NCBI GenBank assembly: GCA_017608235.1
Contig: JAFCGI010000004.1
Location: forward strand, 1 to 64,000
Length of the DNA: 64,000 nt
Origin: Candidatus Pacearchaeota archaeon
GTDB taxonomy: Archaea; Nanobdellota; Nanobdellia; UBA10117; JAFCGI01
Direction of reading: 5' to 3'
Each line of letters opens with the position of its first letter. The stretch's first letter is position 1. Shown in pieces: positions 1,814 to 64,000 of the stretch. The notes below the pieces were generated by a model. It saw only the letters and a program-made list of their open reading frames with translations, ran no database searches and had not been told where the DNA came from. The position numbers were made by a program, and so were the translations under genes.

Positions 1814-3613
1814 CTATTCTAAAGGTACGCCACTCCAAAGAGTCCAAGTCTCTGGATTTGGAGCATAATCTCCAACAACATATCCTGGTGAATATGTATG
1901 CCCTGCATGAGCCCATTGCATATCAGTCCAAGTCTCAGTTGCACCATCTATTCTATAAATAGGACTTTGTAGTGCTCTCCAAGCACCAAGCATTGCCTGA
2001 ACGTCTTGGTGTGCTGGTTCTACTATAACAGGACCCTCATAACCAGCCTTTCTCATATTCTTTAAGAAATCACCAATTGGAACATCTCCTTCTCCAGGAG
2101 TAAGATGTTCATCATAATAACCAAAATTATCAGATACATGAACATGACCAATAATACCTTCTTTGTTTAACTCATCTACTTTTTTCATAAGCCATTTTTC
2201 AAATTCTTCTGGCTTTCCCTTAAAGAATTTCTTCCAGGTAAATGCATGGCCCACATCAAATGTAGCTTTAATATGATCTGCTGCAATCTTATCTGCCTGG
2301 GATCTAGACATATGTCTATTTTCAACCAACATATCAGACATGGCTTCCCTTGACTTAGAAATTATTTTTTTAAGTTCATCAGGATGAGATCCAAAACCCT
2401 GCTCAGGAAAAAGATTTTCTGGAGCAACAAATAATGGTTTTTTTAATTTTTTAGATTTTGTAACTTCAAATGCATGCATAGCAGCTCTAGCTACTCCCCT
2501 ACTAGCTCTACTTAATCCAACATCTTCTATAGGTTTCATCCTACTTATACTCTCATCAATTTCTTTAACATTTTTACTTGCAGAAAGAGAATATTCCTGC
2601 ATAAATCTAATGTTTCGTTCATTATCTTCAAATTGTTTTTTATAAAATTCACTAGGACTACTAGCATCAGAAAATCTTCCTTTAGCAGCTCTAATAAGTC
2701 TTTCAGCTTCTGCTTTTTTTTGTGCTTCTGTAAGTCCTTTTTCAAGCTCTTTAGCTTTTAAGTACTCTTTTTTAATTTCATCAGCTTGAGCTATATGTGC
2801 TTTTGCATCTCCAGCCCATCTTAAAGCCATAGCATGAGCTTCATCTCTTTTAGCTCGATAATAATGTTCTATGAATGCTTTTTCAGGAATAAATTTTTCT
2901 CCATGCATTTTCGCTTTTTTCTTTTCCTCATCTATAATATCATCATATGTCCTTTTTCTAAGTTCAATAGTTCCATCCTCATTTAATTTAAAAGAAACAG
3001 GTTCACCAGTTTTTGGATCTCTTTTATCAGGAACAGGTTCAAAAAATTCTTGATCTTTTCCGATAGCAATTATCTGTCCTGTTTTTTCATCTGCAAGAAA
3101 TATTTGTGCTTTTTTCTCTTCCTCTGGATATGCTCTAAATCCTTCTTTTCCAAACTTCTCATGAATTGATCTTGGAAACTCTCCTGTATGTACAACAACA
3201 GGACCACCCTCTGCAGTATCTGCAGCAAAATCTATAGCTCTTTTTATTTCATTAACATTTTGTTGCTGAAGTTGAGGGTCAAATCCTCTCTCTGTCCTGC
3301 CAGACATATCTCCTACAGACACGCTAGCATGTACTGATAAGGGAACTTCATTAATTCTGGAAAGTTGCCTCATAGCCTCTCTTTCATCCTTACCAAACAT
3401 TTCTGGAGTAGTATTGCCACCCTTTAAGCTGCCTTTTCCTTTTCCTGTAAACCCTAATTCTACAACTCCAGCACCCTGAAATATTCTTGTTTTAAGAGCA
3501 TTAAGCTGTGATTCCATTGGTGGTGTACTTATACCAATATACTTAGGACTAATCTTCATAACTTTCTGTGCTTGTGGATCAAGTGCATGCCAATAACTTT
3601 GTTCAAACTGCAT
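1814..3613 (-). CDS. sugar-phosphate isomerase/AP endonuclease-like TIM-barrel protein with large helical insertion
   Basis: TFDVGHAFTWKKF, GHVHVSDNFGYYDEHLTPGEGDVPIGDFLKNMRKAGYEGPVIVEP motifs. Confidence 0.75.
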   Translation of the reverse strand: MQFEQSYWHALDPQAQKVMKISPKYIGISTPPMESQLNALKTRIFQGAGVVELGFTGKGKGSLKGGNTTPEMFGKDEREAMRQLSRINEVPLSVHASVSVGDMSGRTERGFDPQLQQQNVNEIKRAIDFAADTAEGGPVVVHTGEFPRSIHEKFGKEGFRAYPEEEKKAQIFLADEKTGQIIAIGKDQEFFEPVPDKRDPKTGEPVSFKLNEDGTIELRKRTYDDIIDEEKKKAKMHGEKFIPEKAFIEHYYRAKRDEAHAMALRWAGDAKAHIAQADEIKKEYLKAKELEKGLTEAQKKAEAERLIRAAKGRFSDASSPSEFYKKQFEDNERNIRFMQEYSLSASKNVKEIDESISRMKPIEDVGLSRASRGVARAAMHAFEVTKSKKLKKPLFVAPENLFPEQGFGSHPDELKKIISKSREAMSDMLVENRHMSRSQADKIAADHIKATFDVGHAFTWKKFFKGKPEEFEKWLMKKVDELNKEGIIGHVHVSDNFGYYDEHLTPGEGDVPIGDFLKNMRKAGYEGPVIVEPAHQDVQAMLGAWRALQSPIYRIDGATETWTDMQWAHAGHTYSPGYVVGDYAPNPETWTLWSGVPLE

Positions 3614-55336: not shown

Positions 55337-55384
55337 TCTCTAATTTTTTATATTTATCTTTAATCTCTAATTTTTTATATTTAT
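55333..55384. repeat. 25-bp perfect direct repeat (offset 27) containing both convergent stop codons
   Basis: ttaatctctaattttttatatttat at 55333-55357 and 55360-55384. Confidence 0.95.
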
Positions 55385-57183
55385 TTCATTAAAAATTTCA
55401 TTAGATTTTCTAACATTTGCTCATCAAAACTAATCTCTCTACCAGGCCAATCCTCATACCTAGGGACATCTACATTATTTATAAAATGCTTATCTATTGT
55501 TCCTTCATAAACTAGAGGATGTATATAGATCATTTTCTTTCCTTCACTTATATTTTTTTGTCTAGTTATTCTTCCCTGCATTTGAACTGATTTCTCTAAA
55601 GTAGAAGGCATTCCTAAATAAATTAAAACCTTTCCAGCCCACAAATCTAAGCCATATCCTCCAGCTCCATAGGTCATAATCAAAACATTTGTAGTTGCAT
55701 TATTAAAATAATGAATTACTTCCATTTGTTCTTTAGGCGTCTTTTCATCAGATCCAGTTAATAGTCTACAAAAAATACCTCTATCCCTAAGTGCCTCTCT
55801 CAATGCTCTTGCAGGTTCCACATAATTTGTTGCTATAACTACTTTATCAAATGCCTCTGCTAAATCAACAACTTGTTTAATCTTATCAAAATCATCTCCT
55901 TCTTTTTTCTTTCTTAGTTCAGTTACCATCCATTCCCTATCTATTCCTATTTTTTCAAGATAATCAATAAGTCTCACTTCTTCATTAGCATAATTTAATT
56001 TTGATCCAAAAACACGCCATGAAGATTCCAATATCATCTGAGAAACATATGATAGCTTCATTATACTTAATGCTCTTTTTGCTATTTCTTTATTTTTAGA
56101 CCTAGCAAATTTGCTTAGGATTGTAAAATTCAAATCTCTATGCCCATAATATTTATCATTATTCTCTAACTCAGATACAAACTCACTCTTTCTTCTTCCC
56201 AATATTAAACTAAGTTTTTGGCTAAGTTCTAACAAAAACTCATCCTTGCATTTAATCTCATAACAATCTCCATTTGGTATAAACTGATCAACAAGATTTC
56301 TTTCTGGCTTTACCATTTCTGCATTAAGCAATATTTCTAAAGACTCTGCCTTTTTTCCTGGAAATGCAGTTAAACCAATTATCTGAGCACTATCTCCAAC
56401 AATACTAAATAAATCTGAATAAAGCTTAGAAACTCTATAATGAATATCTTCTTCTCCAGAATAAGCATTTTCATATTCATATGCAACTGCATCTGGAACC
56501 TCATCTATAATTATAGTATCAAACTGTCTTAACATTTCTGGACTTAAATCCCGTTCATTCATACGATATACATCAGATTTAATCAGCTGAACTGTAGAAA
56601 TCATAATATCTGCATTATATGCTTTATATTTACGCTCTTTAAATACTTCTGTCTTCCATTCTCGTTCTTTTGATAAGATTTTTCTCTCTTTGCAGGATGC
56701 AGAATCCATCTTTTGATATCTTCTAGCTGTATTCCTATTCCTACTTCTTTGATATGGACTCCATTTTCCTGATCTCTCCCAACTAACACATTCACGAATA
56801 ACAGGATTTCTTCTAATTACTAAATGATCTTCTAAACCATATTTATTTGCACGTTCTAAAGTTTGCTCTGCAAGTCTTTGATTTGGTTCTATAATCAATG
56901 TTTTTGATCCTGGATTTTGTCTTGATCTCGCTACAGCAATAAGATACGCTATCTCTGTTTTTCCTGAACCCGTAGGAGAAACTAAAACATAATTTTGATT
57001 TGGATTACTAAGCACTTCATATGCTAAAGCCACCTGAGATTGCACATATTCAAACTTTTCATTAAATATAGTCTCTAGCTTAGTCTTTTGCTCCCTTTTA
57101 TACTCAACTACTTTTTCCAGAGTAATATCTGTTTCTAAATCCTTATAGACATCATAAGCTTCAGTTTCAATATTAGTTTCCAT
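55381..57183 (-). CDS. SF2 helicase (DExx variant DEVP), last gene of Ub-like operon
   Basis: LVSPTGSGKTEIAYLI, TIIIDEVPDAV, MQGRITRQ. Confidence 0.85.
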   Translation of the reverse strand: METNIETEAYDVYKDLETDITLEKVVEYKREQKTKLETIFNEKFEYVQSQVALAYEVLSNPNQNYVLVSPTGSGKTEIAYLIAVARSRQNPGSKTLIIEPNQRLAEQTLERANKYGLEDHLVIRRNPVIRECVSWERSGKWSPYQRSRNRNTARRYQKMDSASCKERKILSKEREWKTEVFKERKYKAYNADIMISTVQLIKSDVYRMNERDLSPEMLRQFDTIIIDEVPDAVAYEYENAYSGEEDIHYRVSKLYSDLFSIVGDSAQIIGLTAFPGKKAESLEILLNAEMVKPERNLVDQFIPNGDCYEIKCKDEFLLELSQKLSLILGRRKSEFVSELENNDKYYGHRDLNFTILSKFARSKNKEIAKRALSIMKLSYVSQMILESSWRVFGSKLNYANEEVRLIDYLEKIGIDREWMVTELRKKKEGDDFDKIKQVVDLAEAFDKVVIATNYVEPARALREALRDRGIFCRLLTGSDEKTPKEQMEVIHYFNNATTNVLIMTYGAGGYGLDLWAGKVLIYLGMPSTLEKSVQMQGRITRQKNISEGKKMIYIHPLVYEGTIDKHFINNVDVPRYEDWPGREISFDEQMLENLMKFLMK

Positions 57184-57185
57184 TA

Positions 57186-57302
57186 TTATTCTTGCACTCC
57201 ATAATTTAAATCAAATATTTTAGGTTCTAAGACATTATCTAATACAATATAAATTACCAATCTATTTTCTATATCTTCTTCTAATTCCATTTCACATTTC
57301 AT
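57186..57302 (-). CDS. 38-aa micro-ORF coupled by TAATG overlap (not in ORF track)
   Basis: MKCEMELEEDIENRLVIYIVLDNVLEPKIFDLNYGVQE*; start overlaps upstream stop, ends 2 nt before helicase ATG. Confidence 0.6.
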   Translation of the reverse strand: MKCEMELEEDIENRLVIYIVLDNVLEPKIFDLNYGVQE

Positions 57303-58108
57303 TAAATAACAGCCTCCCCTATAGTTATTGGTAAAAATCTATTTCGATACTCAGATTTAGCATCAGAAATATATCTTGACTCTATATCTGAAATTACTCT
57401 TTCAATCACATTTTGAATATTTTCAATAGAATATTTAGATTGAATAACTTGAATATCTTGTTTTCTTATACCTATAACTCTTTTCGGATTTTTTTTACTA
57501 ATTTTTTTCCCACCACGACCAGTAAGATAATAAAAATCTACAACAAGAATGTCCTTATCTATTATACTTATATATCCTCTACTACCTTTTTTTGCACTGC
57601 GATATTTATGACCATTAATTATTTCTATCTCATCACCAATATAAAAATTATTTACTTCAATTTCATCTGGATGCAAAATCCATTCCCTAAATGGAATAGA
57701 TGAAATATTCAATTTTATTGCACTTGGACCCACCTCACTAATAGTTCCTACTGTACCAATAGGAACTTGTTTTATAGTTCCATCATAATAAAAATAATCT
57801 TCACCATGATCTTTAAAAGACCCAATCGCATCCACAATAGTTGCTTCTGCACCAATAGGATATACTTGAGAAGTTAACTTCTCTTCCAAACTATCTAAGA
57901 AGCAAATATAATCTTCTCTACTAATCCAATCTTCATTAAGAATTCTTTGAATTCCCAAACTAAAGCCCTTATCACATAAAACATCAGATATCTCTTTTGC
58001 TAAATTAACATAATTGATCCCTAGCTGAATTATAGCATCATGTAAATCTATCTTTTCCTTTTTTTCTTTCATTTCAAGATAGCACTTAACAACAGTTTCT
58101 AAATTCAT
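57302..58108 (-). CDS. uncharacterised protein with probable SH3-like beta-barrel segments
   Basis: GDEIEIINGHKYRSAKKGSRGYISIIDKDILVVDFYYLTG...RKQDIQVI; GGAAGG RBS supports ATG at 58108 (track start 58129). Confidence 0.7.
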   Translation of the reverse strand: MNLETVVKCYLEMKEKKEKIDLHDAIIQLGINYVNLAKEISDVLCDKGFSLGIQRILNEDWISREDYICFLDSLEEKLTSQVYPIGAEATIVDAIGSFKDHGEDYFYYDGTIKQVPIGTVGTISEVGPSAIKLNISSIPFREWILHPDEIEVNNFYIGDEIEIINGHKYRSAKKGSRGYISIIDKDILVVDFYYLTGRGGKKISKKNPKRVIGIRKQDIQVIQSKYSIENIQNVIERVISDIESRYISDAKSEYRNRFLPITIGEAVI

Positions 58109-58109
58109 C

Positions 58110-59474
58110 TTATTCCTTCCCATCCTCAAATTTCTTATCTAAGCTTTTTTCAGAAGACTCAACCATGTCAAATTCTTCACTATTTTTTTCATTTGTTATA
58201 TATCCTATTTCAACCTCCTCATCTCCTTCAGAGTTTTTTTCACCTTCAAAAAAATCTTCCTCCATCGAACTATTTTCAGAATTAAGTATTCGTTCTAAAT
58301 AAGTATCTGGAGAAAGTATCATTTCAGTAGTTATCTCTAATTCCATTACATCTGTAGATGGTAATTTGTGTTTGTATTCAACCAATAGCTTCTCAAAAAC
58401 ATTCACTAATGCTCTAGCACCAATCCTTTTCATACTTGCTCTGCCAGCAATAGATCTTAATGCATCATCTGTAGCAGTTAAACTTATCCCTTCATCTCCT
58501 ATACTATCAAAATCTGCTTGCTGTTGTCTATATGCAGAATCCCTGCTTTTTTTAAGAATTTCATATAAGTCATCTGGAGTCAAATCCTGCATAGGTGCTA
58601 TAACAGGAATTCTTCCAACAAACTCTGATGTAAATCCATAATCCATAATATCTTTTGATTCTATATAATTACGCCAATTCTCATCACTAGCTAAATCATA
58701 GCCAACTCTTCCTTTAACAATTTTTTCTAGTTCTCCAAATCTTCCCCCAAAAATAAATAAAATATATTTTGTATTTATCACATTTCTAAGATTTTCTTCT
58801 CCTTCTTGCATTGGATCTTTAGGTTTTTTTAGTCCTAGCATATGTGGAAGCTCAACTTCTGCTTCTTCCATTAATTTTAATAACCCATACTGTACCTCTG
58901 TCCCAGAAACATCTGGTCCGCCACTTCTATCTTTAGCAAATATTTTATCAATCTCATCCACAAAAACTATGCCATATTGTGCAAGTTCTATATTACCCTT
59001 AGCTTCTTTAACAAGAGATCTAACCATATCATTAACATTATTACCTACATATCCTACTCCAGTAAAATCTGTTGCATTAAACTTAACAAAAGGTACACCA
59101 ACCATGTTTGCTAATTTTCTAATCATATAACTTTTTCCAACTCCTGTATCTCCAATTAACAAACAATTTTTCTTAGGAAACGCATCAAATTCATCTTCTC
59201 CCTTTTCATACATTCTTCTAATTCTTGCGTAATGAAAATAAATAATATTTGAAATATGTACTTTAGCTAAATCTTGTTTTATAATATCTTCATCTAACTC
59301 TTCTTTTATTTCCATAGGAGTCATATTAAAGTCCAAAAAAGCAGGTATATTTTTTTTATGTTCTATTTGACTTAATATATCGTCTATTCTTTTGGCTTCT
59401 GCTTCTCTTTGATATGTTAATCCTGCATTCATTCTAATAGTTGTATTTTTGCCATTGTATCTCTTATCATTCAT
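58110..59474 (-). CDS. ClpX-like AAA+ ATPase without ClpX zinc domain or IGF loop
   Basis: LLIGDTGVGKSYMIRKLA, GYVGNNVNDMVRSLV, GIVFVDEIDKIFA, FTSEFVGRIPVIA, KRIGARALVNVFEKLL. Confidence 0.88.
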   Translation of the reverse strand: MNDKRYNGKNTTIRMNAGLTYQREAEAKRIDDILSQIEHKKNIPAFLDFNMTPMEIKEELDEDIIKQDLAKVHISNIIYFHYARIRRMYEKGEDEFDAFPKKNCLLIGDTGVGKSYMIRKLANMVGVPFVKFNATDFTGVGYVGNNVNDMVRSLVKEAKGNIELAQYGIVFVDEIDKIFAKDRSGGPDVSGTEVQYGLLKLMEEAEVELPHMLGLKKPKDPMQEGEENLRNVINTKYILFIFGGRFGELEKIVKGRVGYDLASDENWRNYIESKDIMDYGFTSEFVGRIPVIAPMQDLTPDDLYEILKKSRDSAYRQQQADFDSIGDEGISLTATDDALRSIAGRASMKRIGARALVNVFEKLLVEYKHKLPSTDVMELEITTEMILSPDTYLERILNSENSSMEEDFFEGEKNSEGDEEVEIGYITNEKNSEEFDMVESSEKSLDKKFEDGKE

Positions 59475-60361
59475 AATTCATCACCTCTATCTAAAATTCT
59501 ATCTTGAAGATTTATTTGGAATAATATTGCAGAATAAACGAAAATCTCCTTTGAAGAGTTGCTAGGTTCAGAAATATAATCATCTAGCTTACTAACATAT
59601 TTTCCATCCATCAATTTACGATATATTGAAGCACCTATAAGATATTTTAACTCAAATGGTCCTCCAGTAAGAGGAATTCTTTGTTCAAGTCCTTCAAACA
59701 AAGGAATCATCATTTCTGCTATAATCATATGATTTAAAGAATGACTAGCAAAAGAGTAATCTTGTATTACTTCATTAGCAACACTAACTCTTTTTTCTTT
59801 ACTTTTACATTTATTAGGATTATCTGAAAGCGTATCAAAGACATCAAAATACAATTTTGCTGAAATTTCTCTAGCAACATCATACAATGTTTTAGAAATT
59901 TCTTTTTTCTCTTCTTTCTCTCTAAGTTTATTAATTTCTATACTAAGATTTTTAATTTCTAGAGATTCTTCACATAATTTCTTATTATTAATCACTGGAT
60001 CAATAGCTAAATCATAATTAGTAGCAAATTCTCCATATTTAAACTTAGGAATTATATCTTCAGTTACACAATAAAGTATTATTTTTTCTAAAGGATGATC
60101 TTTTATTTTCTTTAAATATAAATCAATAAATACATTAGTTTTTTTATCTATCAGATAATATGCTAGTGCTTTCGCACTATTATCTAGATCTGGTATGTCT
60201 GAATCTATTTGATATAAAATATTTGATAATATTTTAACATAATCTATATTTATTATAGGACAATCAATAATTTCCTCCATACTTATTTTCTCATCTTCTT
60301 GCTGTCTTAAGATTGATATTAAATCTTCCAACTCTTCTTCTGCTATTGCTTCTGCCTTCAT
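59471..60361 (-). CDS. uncharacterised helical protein of the Ub-like operon
   Basis: 4-nt overlaps with both neighbours. Confidence 0.7.
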   Translation of the reverse strand: MKAEAIAEEELEDLISILRQQEDEKISMEEIIDCPIINIDYVKILSNILYQIDSDIPDLDNSAKALAYYLIDKKTNVFIDLYLKKIKDHPLEKIILYCVTEDIIPKFKYGEFATNYDLAIDPVINNKKLCEESLEIKNLSIEINKLREKEEKKEISKTLYDVAREISAKLYFDVFDTLSDNPNKCKSKEKRVSVANEVIQDYSFASHSLNHMIIAEMMIPLFEGLEQRIPLTGGPFELKYLIGASIYRKLMDGKYVSKLDDYISEPSNSSKEIFVYSAILFQINLQDRILDRGDEL

Positions 60362-61737
60362 ATTTCTACTACCTCCTGCTCAATGTACATACTAATTCTA
60401 GCAACTGGATCACCATATTTTTCTATGCCATTTATTGGATCACCATATTTTTCAGGACTAAACACAGATCTTACATTTGAAAGCATTAATCCAGAAATTA
60501 TATAATTAGGCATAATAACTGATGGTACCTTAGTCTCGTCCAAACAACCAACAGTCTCTAACTCTTCTTCTCTTTCTCGCTCAGCATTTTCATGCGTTCT
60601 CATAAAATAAGCAGGAGTTGAAGTTTTTCCAGGAACATATACTATAACTTGTCCAGTCTCAACACCTGTACCCCCACTTATAAGTGGAGTACTACTATTA
60701 ATTGCATAATCATTTAGTGCTTCTCTTGCTTGCCATTTATCAACACAATCAATAACCAAATCATACTTTTCCACGCCCTCTAATAATGCTGTAGCCATTT
60801 CAGCATCAAAAGGGCTCATAATAGCATTTATATCAATCTTCCTTCTAGTAACATTTCTAATTTTATCTGCTAGAGCTTCTGCCTTATACTTTCCCACAGA
60901 ATCATAATATATTATCTGCCTATTCAAATTAGTCTCTTCCACAATATCAAAATCTACTATATCAATCCTACCCACACCAAGATTTGCTAAACCTGGAACA
61001 ATAAAACTTCCTAAAGCTCCTACGCCTACAACCAATACTTTCTTATCCGAAAAATCATCAACACTATCATCTAAAGGGCATCCTTTCTCAAAAGAAAATC
61101 TTTTAGGATTTGTTAAATTATAATATAGTGCAACTTCTAACAATTCATCTTTAGTCATTAATTGTCTTATCACCTCATATGATGTTAATCCGCCCATAAT
61201 CTGACTTATTATTATATCTTGTTTCTTATCTTTAAGATCAGGCATCACTAATTTAACATCATTTTCTGTTGTACCTAATCTAACCAATCTTCCAAAACAT
61301 TCATCACAACCAACAGATAAATATGGAGTACCTGTATCTTTACAATACTCTAAAACCAATGCCTTTGATCTTGGATTATTAGTTGCATCAATTATTATAT
61401 CTGAATTCTCTAAAAAATATAAAGAACTATAATTAACTATATCAGACCTCATGCCAAGGGCATCAATATCCGGATTTATCTCTCTTAAAACACCTTCAAG
61501 TCCCTCTAACTGTAGAGCTACAGGACCATTTAATTCAAAATCCAAGAAACTCTCTGCATTCGCATGGTAACTACCAATAATTCTCAAATTCTTAACACCT
61601 ACTGCTGTAAGGGGTAAAATAACAGATTGTGCTAAAGGTCCTGCTCCTATAACAGTTATATTTGCTTGTCCTAATTTCTCTTGATCCCACCATGAAATTC
61701 CTTTTTGTCTATCATATCTGTCATCAATTAATCTCAT
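60358..61737 (-). CDS. E1-like protein with tandem ThiF/MoeB-type domains (preferred start MRLIDDRY at 61737)
   Basis: ITVIGAGPLAQSVI (first) and KVLVVGVGALGSFIVPGLANLGVGRIDIVDFDIVEETNLNRQIIYYDSVGKYKAEALADKI (second); GGGAGGAAA RBS. Confidence 0.9.
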   Translation of the reverse strand: MRLIDDRYDRQKGISWWDQEKLGQANITVIGAGPLAQSVILPLTAVGVKNLRIIGSYHANAESFLDFELNGPVALQLEGLEGVLREINPDIDALGMRSDIVNYSSLYFLENSDIIIDATNNPRSKALVLEYCKDTGTPYLSVGCDECFGRLVRLGTTENDVKLVMPDLKDKKQDIIISQIMGGLTSYEVIRQLMTKDELLEVALYYNLTNPKRFSFEKGCPLDDSVDDFSDKKVLVVGVGALGSFIVPGLANLGVGRIDIVDFDIVEETNLNRQIIYYDSVGKYKAEALADKIRNVTRRKIDINAIMSPFDAEMATALLEGVEKYDLVIDCVDKWQAREALNDYAINSSTPLISGGTGVETGQVIVYVPGKTSTPAYFMRTHENAEREREEELETVGCLDETKVPSVIMPNYIISGLMLSNVRSVFSPEKYGDPINGIEKYGDPVARISMYIEQEVVEI

Positions 61738-63508
61738 AACTATTTCCTCCCTCATTAATTTTATTAGTTGAACCAAGAGCCTCTGCTATTCTATCTATCT
61801 CACTTATATTATTAGAATCATTAACATTATTAGAATCATTAACATTATTAGAATTAATAATCTTGGCAACATACTTTCTTATATTTCTAGTATCATCCTG
61901 TCTACTATTACCAATTCTACTAATAGAATTCATAAATTCAACTACATCTGCATTATGATCTAACTCAAACAATTTTTCTTTAAATTTATCTTTCTCTTTA
62001 GGAGTAAGATATCCAACAACTCTCATTTTCTTAGGATATCCTACATCAAAAATCGCACTTTCAAAATTATCATAATCATGAGTTACAAAATTATCTATCA
62101 AATTTATAACCCATTGAGTATATACTCTATTTGATTCTGCATAACCAATAAATCGTTCATAAAAACTATTAATTATTGGATTTATATTTGGTTCTTCTAA
62201 TATAGCATTAATATTTTCAATAGTATATGTCTTACCACAAAAAATTACAAACTTTTTCATAAAAGTAACTATATTTTCATCTGCTTCATATAATCTCTTG
62301 TAAATTTTAACTTTGCAAATAATTTTATTTATCTTATCTATATTAGGTTCAAACTCAAAATCATCTACTTTACCAAGAGTTTTTATTGCTTGTCTTAATC
62401 CCTTATTCTCAGTATATACAAGCTCTAAAAGAGAATGTATATATTTTTGATATCGCTTTTCTTCTTTAACAGAAGTATTTCCTATATATTTAATTGCTTC
62501 ATCAATAAATGATTCAACTAGTAATTCTAATTTCCCTTCAGGTGAACGATAACTATTATATCTTTTAGCTAATCCAAAAAAATTTCGCTTAGATTTAGAC
62601 TGCCTAGGCGCATACTTTTTTGTAAAAATTATTTTATGTTTTATCTCTTCTCTAAGTTCTTCTTCTGTAAATTCTATATCATTCTCAACAGAAACTATTT
62701 CTAAATCAGTTTCAACTAGCTGCTGACTTCTAGTTCCATTTCCAAAAAGACAATCTTCCTCAGATATCGCAACTACAGTATATGGCTTTGTCTTTAAATT
62801 ATTCACAACAATACTATAACAAAAACTAACAATATTTGATCTGTTAGTATGTAGTTTTGAGTTTTGTAATAAATCTCTAAATAAAGACATCACATCTTCA
62901 ACTCCAAGAGCATATTTTTCTGATATTTTCTCAAGAAGTTCCTTATCTGGTAAATCATATTTTAGACTTCCATCTGTCATAAAACTACCTTTTACTGTAA
63001 TACTTTTTTCTTCAATAATACTAGTTAGATCTCCATTTACTAATCCAAATTCTTTTTGATAGGATTCTTCTGTATTAAGACCTACAGAATTCAATACTGT
63101 CAATGTATTAGCATCATCTGTAGTAGAATGTTTAACAAATGGCATATCTGCATGACTATGCATCCAACCAATTATATGGTAGTTAGTTCCATTCAATTTA
63201 TTCATTCGAATAACTTCTTCAGCAGCCTTGCCAACATACCTGCCTTTAACTTCTACTCTAGCACTGCGCACTTCTTGTCCATCTGCTAAGTAAATATCTC
63301 TTACTAAATCTGGCTGATCATCTGCATCTGCAAGAAGAAAAGCATACCATTCATAAGCCCCCTTACCAATTTCCTTAACTAAAGGCCCAATTGCTTCTGC
63401 TTTCTTCATAACATTTTCTGTTACTCTAACTTTTCTATCTTTTTCTTCCAGTTCTATACAATCATCACTAACTGTTAACTCAAAAATTTCTTCAAGAGAA
63501 TCAGGCAT
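61724..63508 (-). CDS. JAMM/JAB-domain metallopeptidase with long C-terminal region (preferred start MPDSLEEIF at 63508)
   Basis: HIIGWMHSHADMPFVKHSTTDDANT; strong RBS GGAGGGGGA upstream of 63508. Confidence 0.85.
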   Translation of the reverse strand: MPDSLEEIFELTVSDDCIELEEKDRKVRVTENVMKKAEAIGPLVKEIGKGAYEWYAFLLADADDQPDLVRDIYLADGQEVRSARVEVKGRYVGKAAEEVIRMNKLNGTNYHIIGWMHSHADMPFVKHSTTDDANTLTVLNSVGLNTEESYQKEFGLVNGDLTSIIEEKSITVKGSFMTDGSLKYDLPDKELLEKISEKYALGVEDVMSLFRDLLQNSKLHTNRSNIVSFCYSIVVNNLKTKPYTVVAISEEDCLFGNGTRSQQLVETDLEIVSVENDIEFTEEELREEIKHKIIFTKKYAPRQSKSKRNFFGLAKRYNSYRSPEGKLELLVESFIDEAIKYIGNTSVKEEKRYQKYIHSLLELVYTENKGLRQAIKTLGKVDDFEFEPNIDKINKIICKVKIYKRLYEADENIVTFMKKFVIFCGKTYTIENINAILEEPNINPIINSFYERFIGYAESNRVYTQWVINLIDNFVTHDYDNFESAIFDVGYPKKMRVVGYLTPKEKDKFKEKLFELDHNADVVEFMNSISRIGNSRQDDTRNIRKYVAKIINSNNVNDSNNVNDSNNISEIDRIAEALGSTNKINEGGNSYEIN

Positions 63509-64000
63509 ATATAACATCCCCCTCCATGTCTTTATCAAAAGTAAAATCCTCTCTTTGATCAGCTTTCAAATTAGTTACACACAATCCTCTCCTCTTAATT
63601 TCTTCTTTACTAATTTTTTTGTAAAGTCCAACAGTACTAAGTGGTCTATAACCACCATGATCATAATCTACATATTCACCTCTCATCTGGCGTCTATTAG
63701 TATATCCAGATTCTATAACATACTTAGCTAATCCTAAAAAGCTAGCAATTCTTTCAGCTAAACTCAAACCAGCAAAATAATTAGTAACATACTTTGCACT
63801 ATATTTACATATAGTCATCCATCCACTTGTCTCATCACGTACAAATGGATGTAAATACTTATTAATTATAACCGCATCCGTACTAAATCCCAAGTCTTTA
63901 TCTTTACTATTATATATGATTCTAACTCCAATAGTACACTCATCAAATTCATAATATCCTGTATTATGTATCGTATCTTTAAGTACAAATGGAGGAACCT
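63501..64000 (-). CDS. partial E2 (UBC)-like protein, open to the window edge
   Basis: frame remains open from 64000; VPPFVLKDTIHNTGYYEF...YLHPFVRDETSGWMTICKYSAKYV resembles HPxV...G.IC of E2-fold proteins; 8-nt overlap with JAB gene. Confidence 0.55.
   Translation of the reverse strand, partial: VPPFVLKDTIHNTGYYEFDECTIGVRIIYNSKDKDLGFSTDAVIINKYLHPFVRDETSGWMTICKYSAKYVTNYFAGLSLAERIASFLGLAKYVIESGYTNRRQMRGEYVDYDHGGYRPLSTVGLYKKISKEEIKRRGLCVTNLKADQREDFTFDKDMEGDVIYA

Follow-up and report, generated by a model that had tools for sequence, protein, structure and literature searches.

The window analyzed here comprises bases 1 to 64,000 of contig JAFCGI010000004.1 (79,403 bp), which belongs to the 1.2-Mb, 93% complete genome GCA_017608235.1 of a Candidatus Pacearchaeota archaeon. 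At the end of the window lies a minus-strand operon encoding a candidate E2-like protein, a JAB/JAMM metalloprotease, a double-ThiF E1, a 296-residue protein and a ClpX-like AAA+ ATPase. The first-pass annotation of this DNA had proposed a candidate new ubiquitin-like modification and unfolding system, and this proposal is supported by an adjacent gene for a predicted ubiquitin-like modifier (UBL), an invariant JAMM motif, a conjugation-type E1, and the presence of a ClpX-like member in the bacterial versions of the operon.

Conserved chemistry of the core proteins

No modifier had been seen within the window, and one had been predicted to lie beyond position 64,000. Extension of the contig indeed revealed a 122-codon gene directly upstream of the E2-like gene, and members of the same family adjoin E2 on the upstream side in most related loci. 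An AlphaFold2 model of the copy from the closest relative (L057; loci are numbered with L and genomes with G), built from 29 sequences, reached a predicted local distance difference test score of 85 and showed the beta-grasp order of elements. Its best PDB matches in Foldseek were nearly all Atg8/LC3/GATE-16, Caldiarchaeum ubiquitin (CsUb), ISG15, SUMO, and ubiquitin, at probabilities of 0.9 to 1.0 but with E values of only about 1e-3 and a TM-score to CsUb (target length) of about 0.63. The family is predicted to have a ubiquitin-like fold.

Thirty-nine of 46 relatives carry GG near the C terminus, followed by 0 to 31 residues. The motif is PQEGG in 25 of the 46, and the residues after it are unconserved or, in four cases, missing altogether. 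Bacterial UBLs have an invariant (K/R)PQEGG followed by 0 to 30 variable residues, most archaeal UBLs have QEGG, QTGG, or EEGG with a short tail, and one subgroup carries QEGA instead. Judged from these alignments, GG plus a variable tail is the pattern of a protease-trimmed precursor, and in Caldiarchaeum the same precursor pattern was shown to be cut by Rpn11 (PMC5654768). Two peculiarities were noticed by eye among the UBL genes. At L120:5565-6383, a UBL (...KPQEGG) is fused in frame to a downstream part that looks like a GNAT (RimI-like) acetyltransferase, and small genes resembling response regulators (REC-like) lie directly upstream of the UBL gene in two different archaeal loci (L037:9026-9604 and L044:5285-5824).

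The JAMM residues E63, H127, H129, S138, and D141 (numbered from the TTG start) are the only invariant columns among 23 JAB sequences, which are otherwise 17 to 30% identical to the window protein. The single sequence gave only a marginal Pfam match (0.087), and the best PDB match of the JAB profile was Caldiarchaeum Rpn11 (E = 6e-10); the JAMM-like identity assigned to this protein is thereby upheld. It also carries a long C-terminal extension. Two giant JAB proteins of 1,403 and 1,026 residues stand in tandem ahead of E1 at L042:583-7920.

Similarly, the two Rossmann ThiF-like halves described for the E1 were recovered, one degenerate and one active. In an alignment of 22 sequences, the N-terminal half (inactive adenylation domain [IAD]) lacks the ATP-site residues, and in the second half (active adenylation domain [AAD]), residues G251, G253, D275, D277, N283, R286, K298, D339, and D346 are kept in all 22; C411 is near-invariant. 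The top PDB matches of the E1 profile were SAE2, UBA6, and UBA1, which scored above ThiF and MoeB. We read the E1 as having the inactive-plus-active double-ThiF layout of eukaryotic E1s. Downstream of E1, loci L069, L072, and L076 share a common gene, which in L076 encodes a Ser/Thr protein kinase (Pkinase, 6e-36).

The E2-like protein has an invariant cysteine, C417, conserved in 22 sequences (C392 of L057, invariant in 35 archaeal and bacterial proteins). An HP pair 12 to 13 residues before this cysteine is near-invariant in the 35 proteins, and in the window protein C417 follows HPF. The C-terminal part of an AlphaFold2 model of the L057 protein consists of a helix, strands, a loop with the HP and the cysteine, and a helix, as expected of UBC enzymes. 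Compared with viral models in Foldseek, the model matched a few unnamed proteins at high probability (best E value, 2.8e-4). Prok-E2_B had no match in 198 Desulfobacterota, and none in the controls either. The assignment as a candidate E2 is based on the HP...C motif and the gene context. The L057 model also contains two repeated beta-beta-beta-beta-alpha modules (residues 20 to 65 and 224 to 282) before the catalytic part.

The window AAA+ protein aligns with ClpX over the whole module (E = 2e-51). The complete ClpX-like module reported for it was borne out, since Walker A and B, the GYVG pore loop, the GRIP arginine finger, and the GAR sensor 2 are all retained. An alignment to solved ClpX shows a deletion of the stretch of the IGF loop, which docks ClpP, and no zinc-binding N-domain; the AAA proteins of the bacterial cassettes show the same retained motifs and the same two losses. 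The window protein scores below the curated ClpX cutoffs of two NCBIfam models (264 bits versus 359 and 230 versus 371). Furthermore, the bacterial hosts have, apart from the cassette AAA at about 218 to 233 bits, a true ClpX that reaches 640 bits or more. Neither a true ClpX nor ClpP was found in the 93%-complete window genome, whose sole PF00574 match is an SppA-like protease; alpha and beta subunits of the 20S proteasome are present. ClpP was rejected as a partner because the genome lacks ClpP and the AAA+ lacks the IGF loop, and the ring, going by this deletion, probably cannot dock ClpP. Docking to the proteasome by HbYX was rejected as well, no such C terminus being present on the AAAs inspected. 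Four desulfobacterotal loci (L161-L164) encode a second ClpX paralogue of approximately 580 to 670 residues that is extended at its C terminus and has an IGF-like loop; this paralogue is the nearest nonsystem relative of the window AAA in the tree.

Distribution and conserved gene order

About 60 homologous loci were found in Nanoarchaeota/DPANN, Desulfobacterota, and Methylomirabilota, with the UBL, E2, JAB, and E1 genes mostly adjacent. With JAB as the query, the UBL-E2-JAB-E1 set, mostly in that order, turned up in 30 of the 371 genomes examined in the window's phylum; the iterated-profile E values for these loci are inflated by self-inclusion. The E2-like family occurs in 37/343 genomes of that phylum and in 15/297 Desulfobacterota, and carriers of the system include a complete genome of 3.28 Mb (G599). 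When 85,462 species were scanned with the E1 alignment, matches came from DPANN, Desulfobacterota, deltaproteobacterial bins, and one Methylomirabilota genome. Because the set recurs with its catalytic residues invariant or nearly so, we conclude that it is not a chance assembly. The neighborhood recurs in DPANN genomes, where the first-pass annotation had proposed to check its conservation, and the description as an archaeal operon is too narrow for a system that also occurs in bacteria, sulfate reducers among them. Some genomes of the window's phylum, such as G151, G208, and G322 (0.9 to 1.7 Mb), contain several E2-like copies each, suggesting diversified parallel systems, and L050:5258-14159 and L074 each combine two UBL and two JAB genes in one operon.

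The bacterial unit consists of six genes, either UBL-E2-X-AAA-JAB-E1 or an arrangement that differs only in having E1 at the front, where X denotes a protein without a family name. Practically all bacterial loci that have the remaining cassette genes and enough flanking sequence contain the AAA within the cassette; the ClpX-like ATPase, whose place in such an operon had been singled out as unusual, thus belongs regularly to the bacterial version. In the E1 tree, SM23-78 (L057) pairs with the window, with which it shares the order UBL-E2-JAB-E1-296aa-AAA. This tree is divided into a DPANN branch and a bacterial branch (100/100), and two nanoarchaeotal loci, L044 and L046, are nested in the bacterial branch. 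Since both also carry a six-gene order identical to that of the bacterial cassette, the whole cassette appears to have been transferred between bacteria and Nanoarchaeota.

Organization of the locus

All eight minus-strand open reading frames (ORFs) reported for the window were found again (Table 1), and their overlapping or closely spaced junctions were confirmed exactly. The E2-like and JAB genes overlap by 8 nucleotides (nt) (ATGCCTGA), JAB and E1 overlap by 14 nt, and the E1/296-residue and 296-residue/AAA junctions are 4-nt ATGA overlaps. The AAA gene and the 275-residue ORF are 1 nt apart, the latter is joined to the 38-residue ORF by TAATG, and a gap of 2 nt separates this ORF from the helicase gene. 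At the other end, 2 nt lie between the UBL and E2-like genes, and a strong ribosome-binding site precedes the UBL gene.

Table 1. Features of the operon and its surroundings
Feature	Position	Strand or placement	Basis and remarks
E2-like protein (candidate)	63501..65057 (contig), full 518 aa; last 165 aa inside window (63501..64000)	-	HP...C motif and gene context
JAB/JAMM metalloprotease	61724..63508	-	ATG at 63508, longer TTG ORF to 63538; JAMM residues, Rpn11 profile match
E1, double ThiF	60358..61737	-	ATG at 61737, longer TTG ORF to 61776; ThiF 1e-53
296-aa protein, mostly helical	59471..60361	-	No family match
ClpX-like AAA+ unfoldase	58110..59474	-	AAA_2 9e-21; ClpX motifs
275-aa ORF (268 aa from ATG)	57302..58108	-	SH3/KOW-like repeats by eye; no Pfam family
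38-aa ORF	57186..57302	-	TAATG junction; homologue searches negative; possibly not part of the system
SF2 (superfamily 2) helicase (Hef/Cas3-like)	55381..57183	-	Co-directional; ResIII/DEAD helicase 7e-16; membership unsupported
UBL modifier, 122 aa	65060-65428 (contig, past window)	Same operon, directly upstream of E2-like	Predicted ubiquitin fold
213-aa gene	65665-66306 (contig, past window)	Upstream of UBL gene	Shares 32-bp element with UBL gene

The UBL gene is preceded by its own promoter region, beyond which lie the 213-residue gene and a divergent Lrp-type regulator. A 32-bp element with a TATA-like sequence has exactly two copies in the whole genome, at positions 65497-65528 (before the UBL gene) and 66297-66328 (before the 213-residue gene). 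Because this element is unique to both, the UBL unit and the 213-residue gene are probably co-regulated via a shared dedicated promoter element. Upstream of the Lrp-type regulator, two paralogous genes without a known family stand in tandem (L003:4380-7866, in a numbering that places the two copies of the element at 2497-2528 and 3297-3328); their products have 889 and 271 residues, and the larger one opens with a poly-lysine run.

In the related loci examined, the helicase, the 38-residue ORF, and the 213-residue gene have no counterpart. The SF2 helicase was for this reason rejected as a core part, and the earlier suggestion that it belongs to the system is unsupported.

Single-sequence searches of Pfam, NCBIfam, PADLOC, and PHROGs gave no name to the UBL, E2-like, X, and 296-residue proteins. 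A homologue of the 296-residue protein adjoins the AAA in the closest relative, and blastp gave 8e-9 to L037:2172-2993. By eye, an SH3/KOW-like module resembling the 275-residue ORF can be seen in L037, downstream of the AAA, and in L044, where it forms part of the X gene; we infer that these are related, although blastp similarity to them was not significant. Iterated-profile matches for the 296- and 275-residue proteins were excluded because the profiles had drifted into long proteins. The 296-residue (X-like) protein and the SH3-like one may act as adaptors.

Discussion

We propose, with a probability of roughly 70%, that this operon encodes all the parts of a reversible pathway for ubiquitin-like conjugation, together with a ClpX-type unfoldase linked to it. 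The modifier would be synthesized as a precursor whose tail is trimmed by the JAB protease, to GG in most relatives and to a Gly/Ala end in the window's subgroup. The active half of the E1 would then adenylate the exposed end and form a thioester with it, and the UBL would be handed to the invariant cysteine of the E2-like protein and from there to target proteins, from which the JAB could also remove it. Finally, the ClpX-like ring would pull on tagged proteins, unfolding or extracting them like Cdc48/p97 and, in the archaeon, possibly feeding the 20S proteasome. The individual conjugation steps are biochemical deductions strongly suggested by the conserved chemistry, and we infer the link between tag and unfoldase from the fixed gene context, mainly that of bacteria.

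Several observations weigh against this proposal. The window UBL ends in ...DVGAGDLEKLL, which contains a glycine but no GG pair. The small beta-grasp protein ending in GG that had been expected beyond the window was thus found as far as the predicted fold and the tails of the family are concerned, but not in the sequence of this copy, whose mature end is probably other than a plain GG. No E3 was found in the operon, and no RING family is present among its proteins. The UBC fold that the first-pass annotation had ascribed to the E2-like protein could not be confirmed: Foldseek of the full model against the PDB returned only noise, and hhalign of the C-terminal domain against human E2 sequences gave a nonsignificant probability of 0.2%, even though it was the HP...C active site that aligned. 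Most archaeal members have no adjoining AAA, so that unfolding, as far as gene neighborhoods tell, is not obligatory in archaea. Finally, a single origin of the system AAAs is neither shown nor rejected (approximately unbiased [AU] test, p = 0.19 in the AAA tree).

The missing AAA beside most archaeal members would also fit a system in which reversible UBL tagging serves regulation or defense, as in Bil or CBASS Cap2/Cap3, and the AAA+ has another task, for example remodeling the conjugation complex, rather than reading the tag. The patchy distribution and the multiple copies in some genomes are likewise typical of accessory or conflict systems, and PADLOC E1-E2 models match the E1. However, the AAA of bacteria has a constant place in the cassette, with E2/X on one side and JAB on the other; PADLOC contains no family that matches the UBL, E2, or JAB; and the flanks, which were surveyed in part, showed no recurrent genes of defense systems or mobile elements. 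We therefore regard this explanation as unlikely.

It is similarly doubtful that the protein encoded upstream of JAB is another cysteine-dependent factor, for instance a substrate receptor or a transferase of unrelated fold, and that conjugation is E2 independent as with small archaeal modifier proteins (SAMPs). The lack of a UBC match in profile and fold searches and the large two-repeat N-terminal part, unlike known E2s, would be explained in this way, but the invariant cysteine with its HP, the strands before and the helix after it in the model, as in UBC enzymes, and the fixed position in the operon argue against this reading. A sulfur carrier pathway of the ThiS/MoaD/Urm1 type, with the E1 activating the UBL for sulfur transfer instead of conjugation, is very improbable: the E1 is a ThiF-family enzyme and archaeal Ubls (SAMPs/Urm1) often double as sulfur carriers and modifiers, but the window's operon yielded no rhodanese, ThiG, or MoaE partner, the E1 is accompanied by an E2-like protein with an invariant cysteine and a full JAMM protease, the inactive-plus-active layout is that of conjugating E1s, and the GG is followed by a disposable tail.

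Beyond a conjugation pathway linked to an unfoldase, we put forward, at somewhat less than even odds, that these operons constitute a third, independently built tagging and unfolding pathway beside ubiquitin-proteasome/Cdc48 and Pup-Mpa. A ClpX-family ring dedicated to the system, having lost ClpP docking, would read and unfold the conjugates of a Ubl with a eukaryote-like E1, and Nanoarchaeota and Desulfobacterota would share the system partly by whole-cassette transfer.

Relation to known systems

The ubiquitin operon of Caldiarchaeum and Asgard archaea (ubiquitin, E1, E2, the small RING finger protein [srfp] E3, and Rpn11) likewise encodes a tailed Ubl precursor, an E1, an E2-like protein, and an Rpn11-type JAMM protease. 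Here, in contrast, no RING/srfp E3 was found, the double-ThiF E1 has no recognized ubiquitin-fold domain, the E2 is large and undetectable by profiles, a ClpX-like ATPase belongs to the unit, and the sequences are far apart.

CBASS Cap2/Cap3 also combine E1/E2-type activation with a JAB protease. A type II CBASS label was nevertheless rejected, since no cyclase family is present among the operon proteins and the E1, which matches eukaryotic E1 profiles better than it matches Cap2, is not fused to an E2. PRTRC, which corresponds to type 6d of Iyer et al., was rejected as well, because PRTRC_ThiF scored 48 bits against a cutoff of 144.75 and no other PRTRC match was obtained. The operon types 6a to 6e of these authors join E1, JAB, Ubl, and E2-like proteins, but the E1 is usually fused to JAB or E2 there, and no AAA+ is mentioned (Iyer et al., 2006; PMC1779556). 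BilABCD has the same four core functions (Ubl, E2, JAMM deubiquitinase, and E1), and BilD is an E1 of the IAD-plus-AAD type (PMC11354881), as is the E1 described here. It differs by its tandem-ubiquitin BilA and in that no ATPase has been described, whereas our operon has a single UBL, X/296-residue proteins, a ClpX-like AAA, and an E2 without a match in Pfam, NCBIfam, or PADLOC. With ClpX, the window AAA+ shares the module with GYVG, Walker A/B, and sensor 2, but not the zinc-binding domain and the IGF loop.

Specific membership in Bil, PRTRC, CBASS, or ClpX thus fails. By their sequences, the modifier, the E1, and the JAMM protease have the general characteristics expected of prokaryotic Ubl conjugation. 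A search of the open-access literature turned up no Ubl operon reported to include a ClpX-like ATPase, subscription papers and preprints lying outside that search. The operons would represent a lineage of complete ubiquitin-like systems, shared by bacteria and DPANN archaea and apparently undescribed, in which a Ubl is paired with a dedicated ClpX-type unfoldase. If that ring truly reads the tag, tag-dependent unfolding was invented independently, and with only six small genes, the joining of E1-E2-Ubl tagging to AAA+ machines becomes directly testable.

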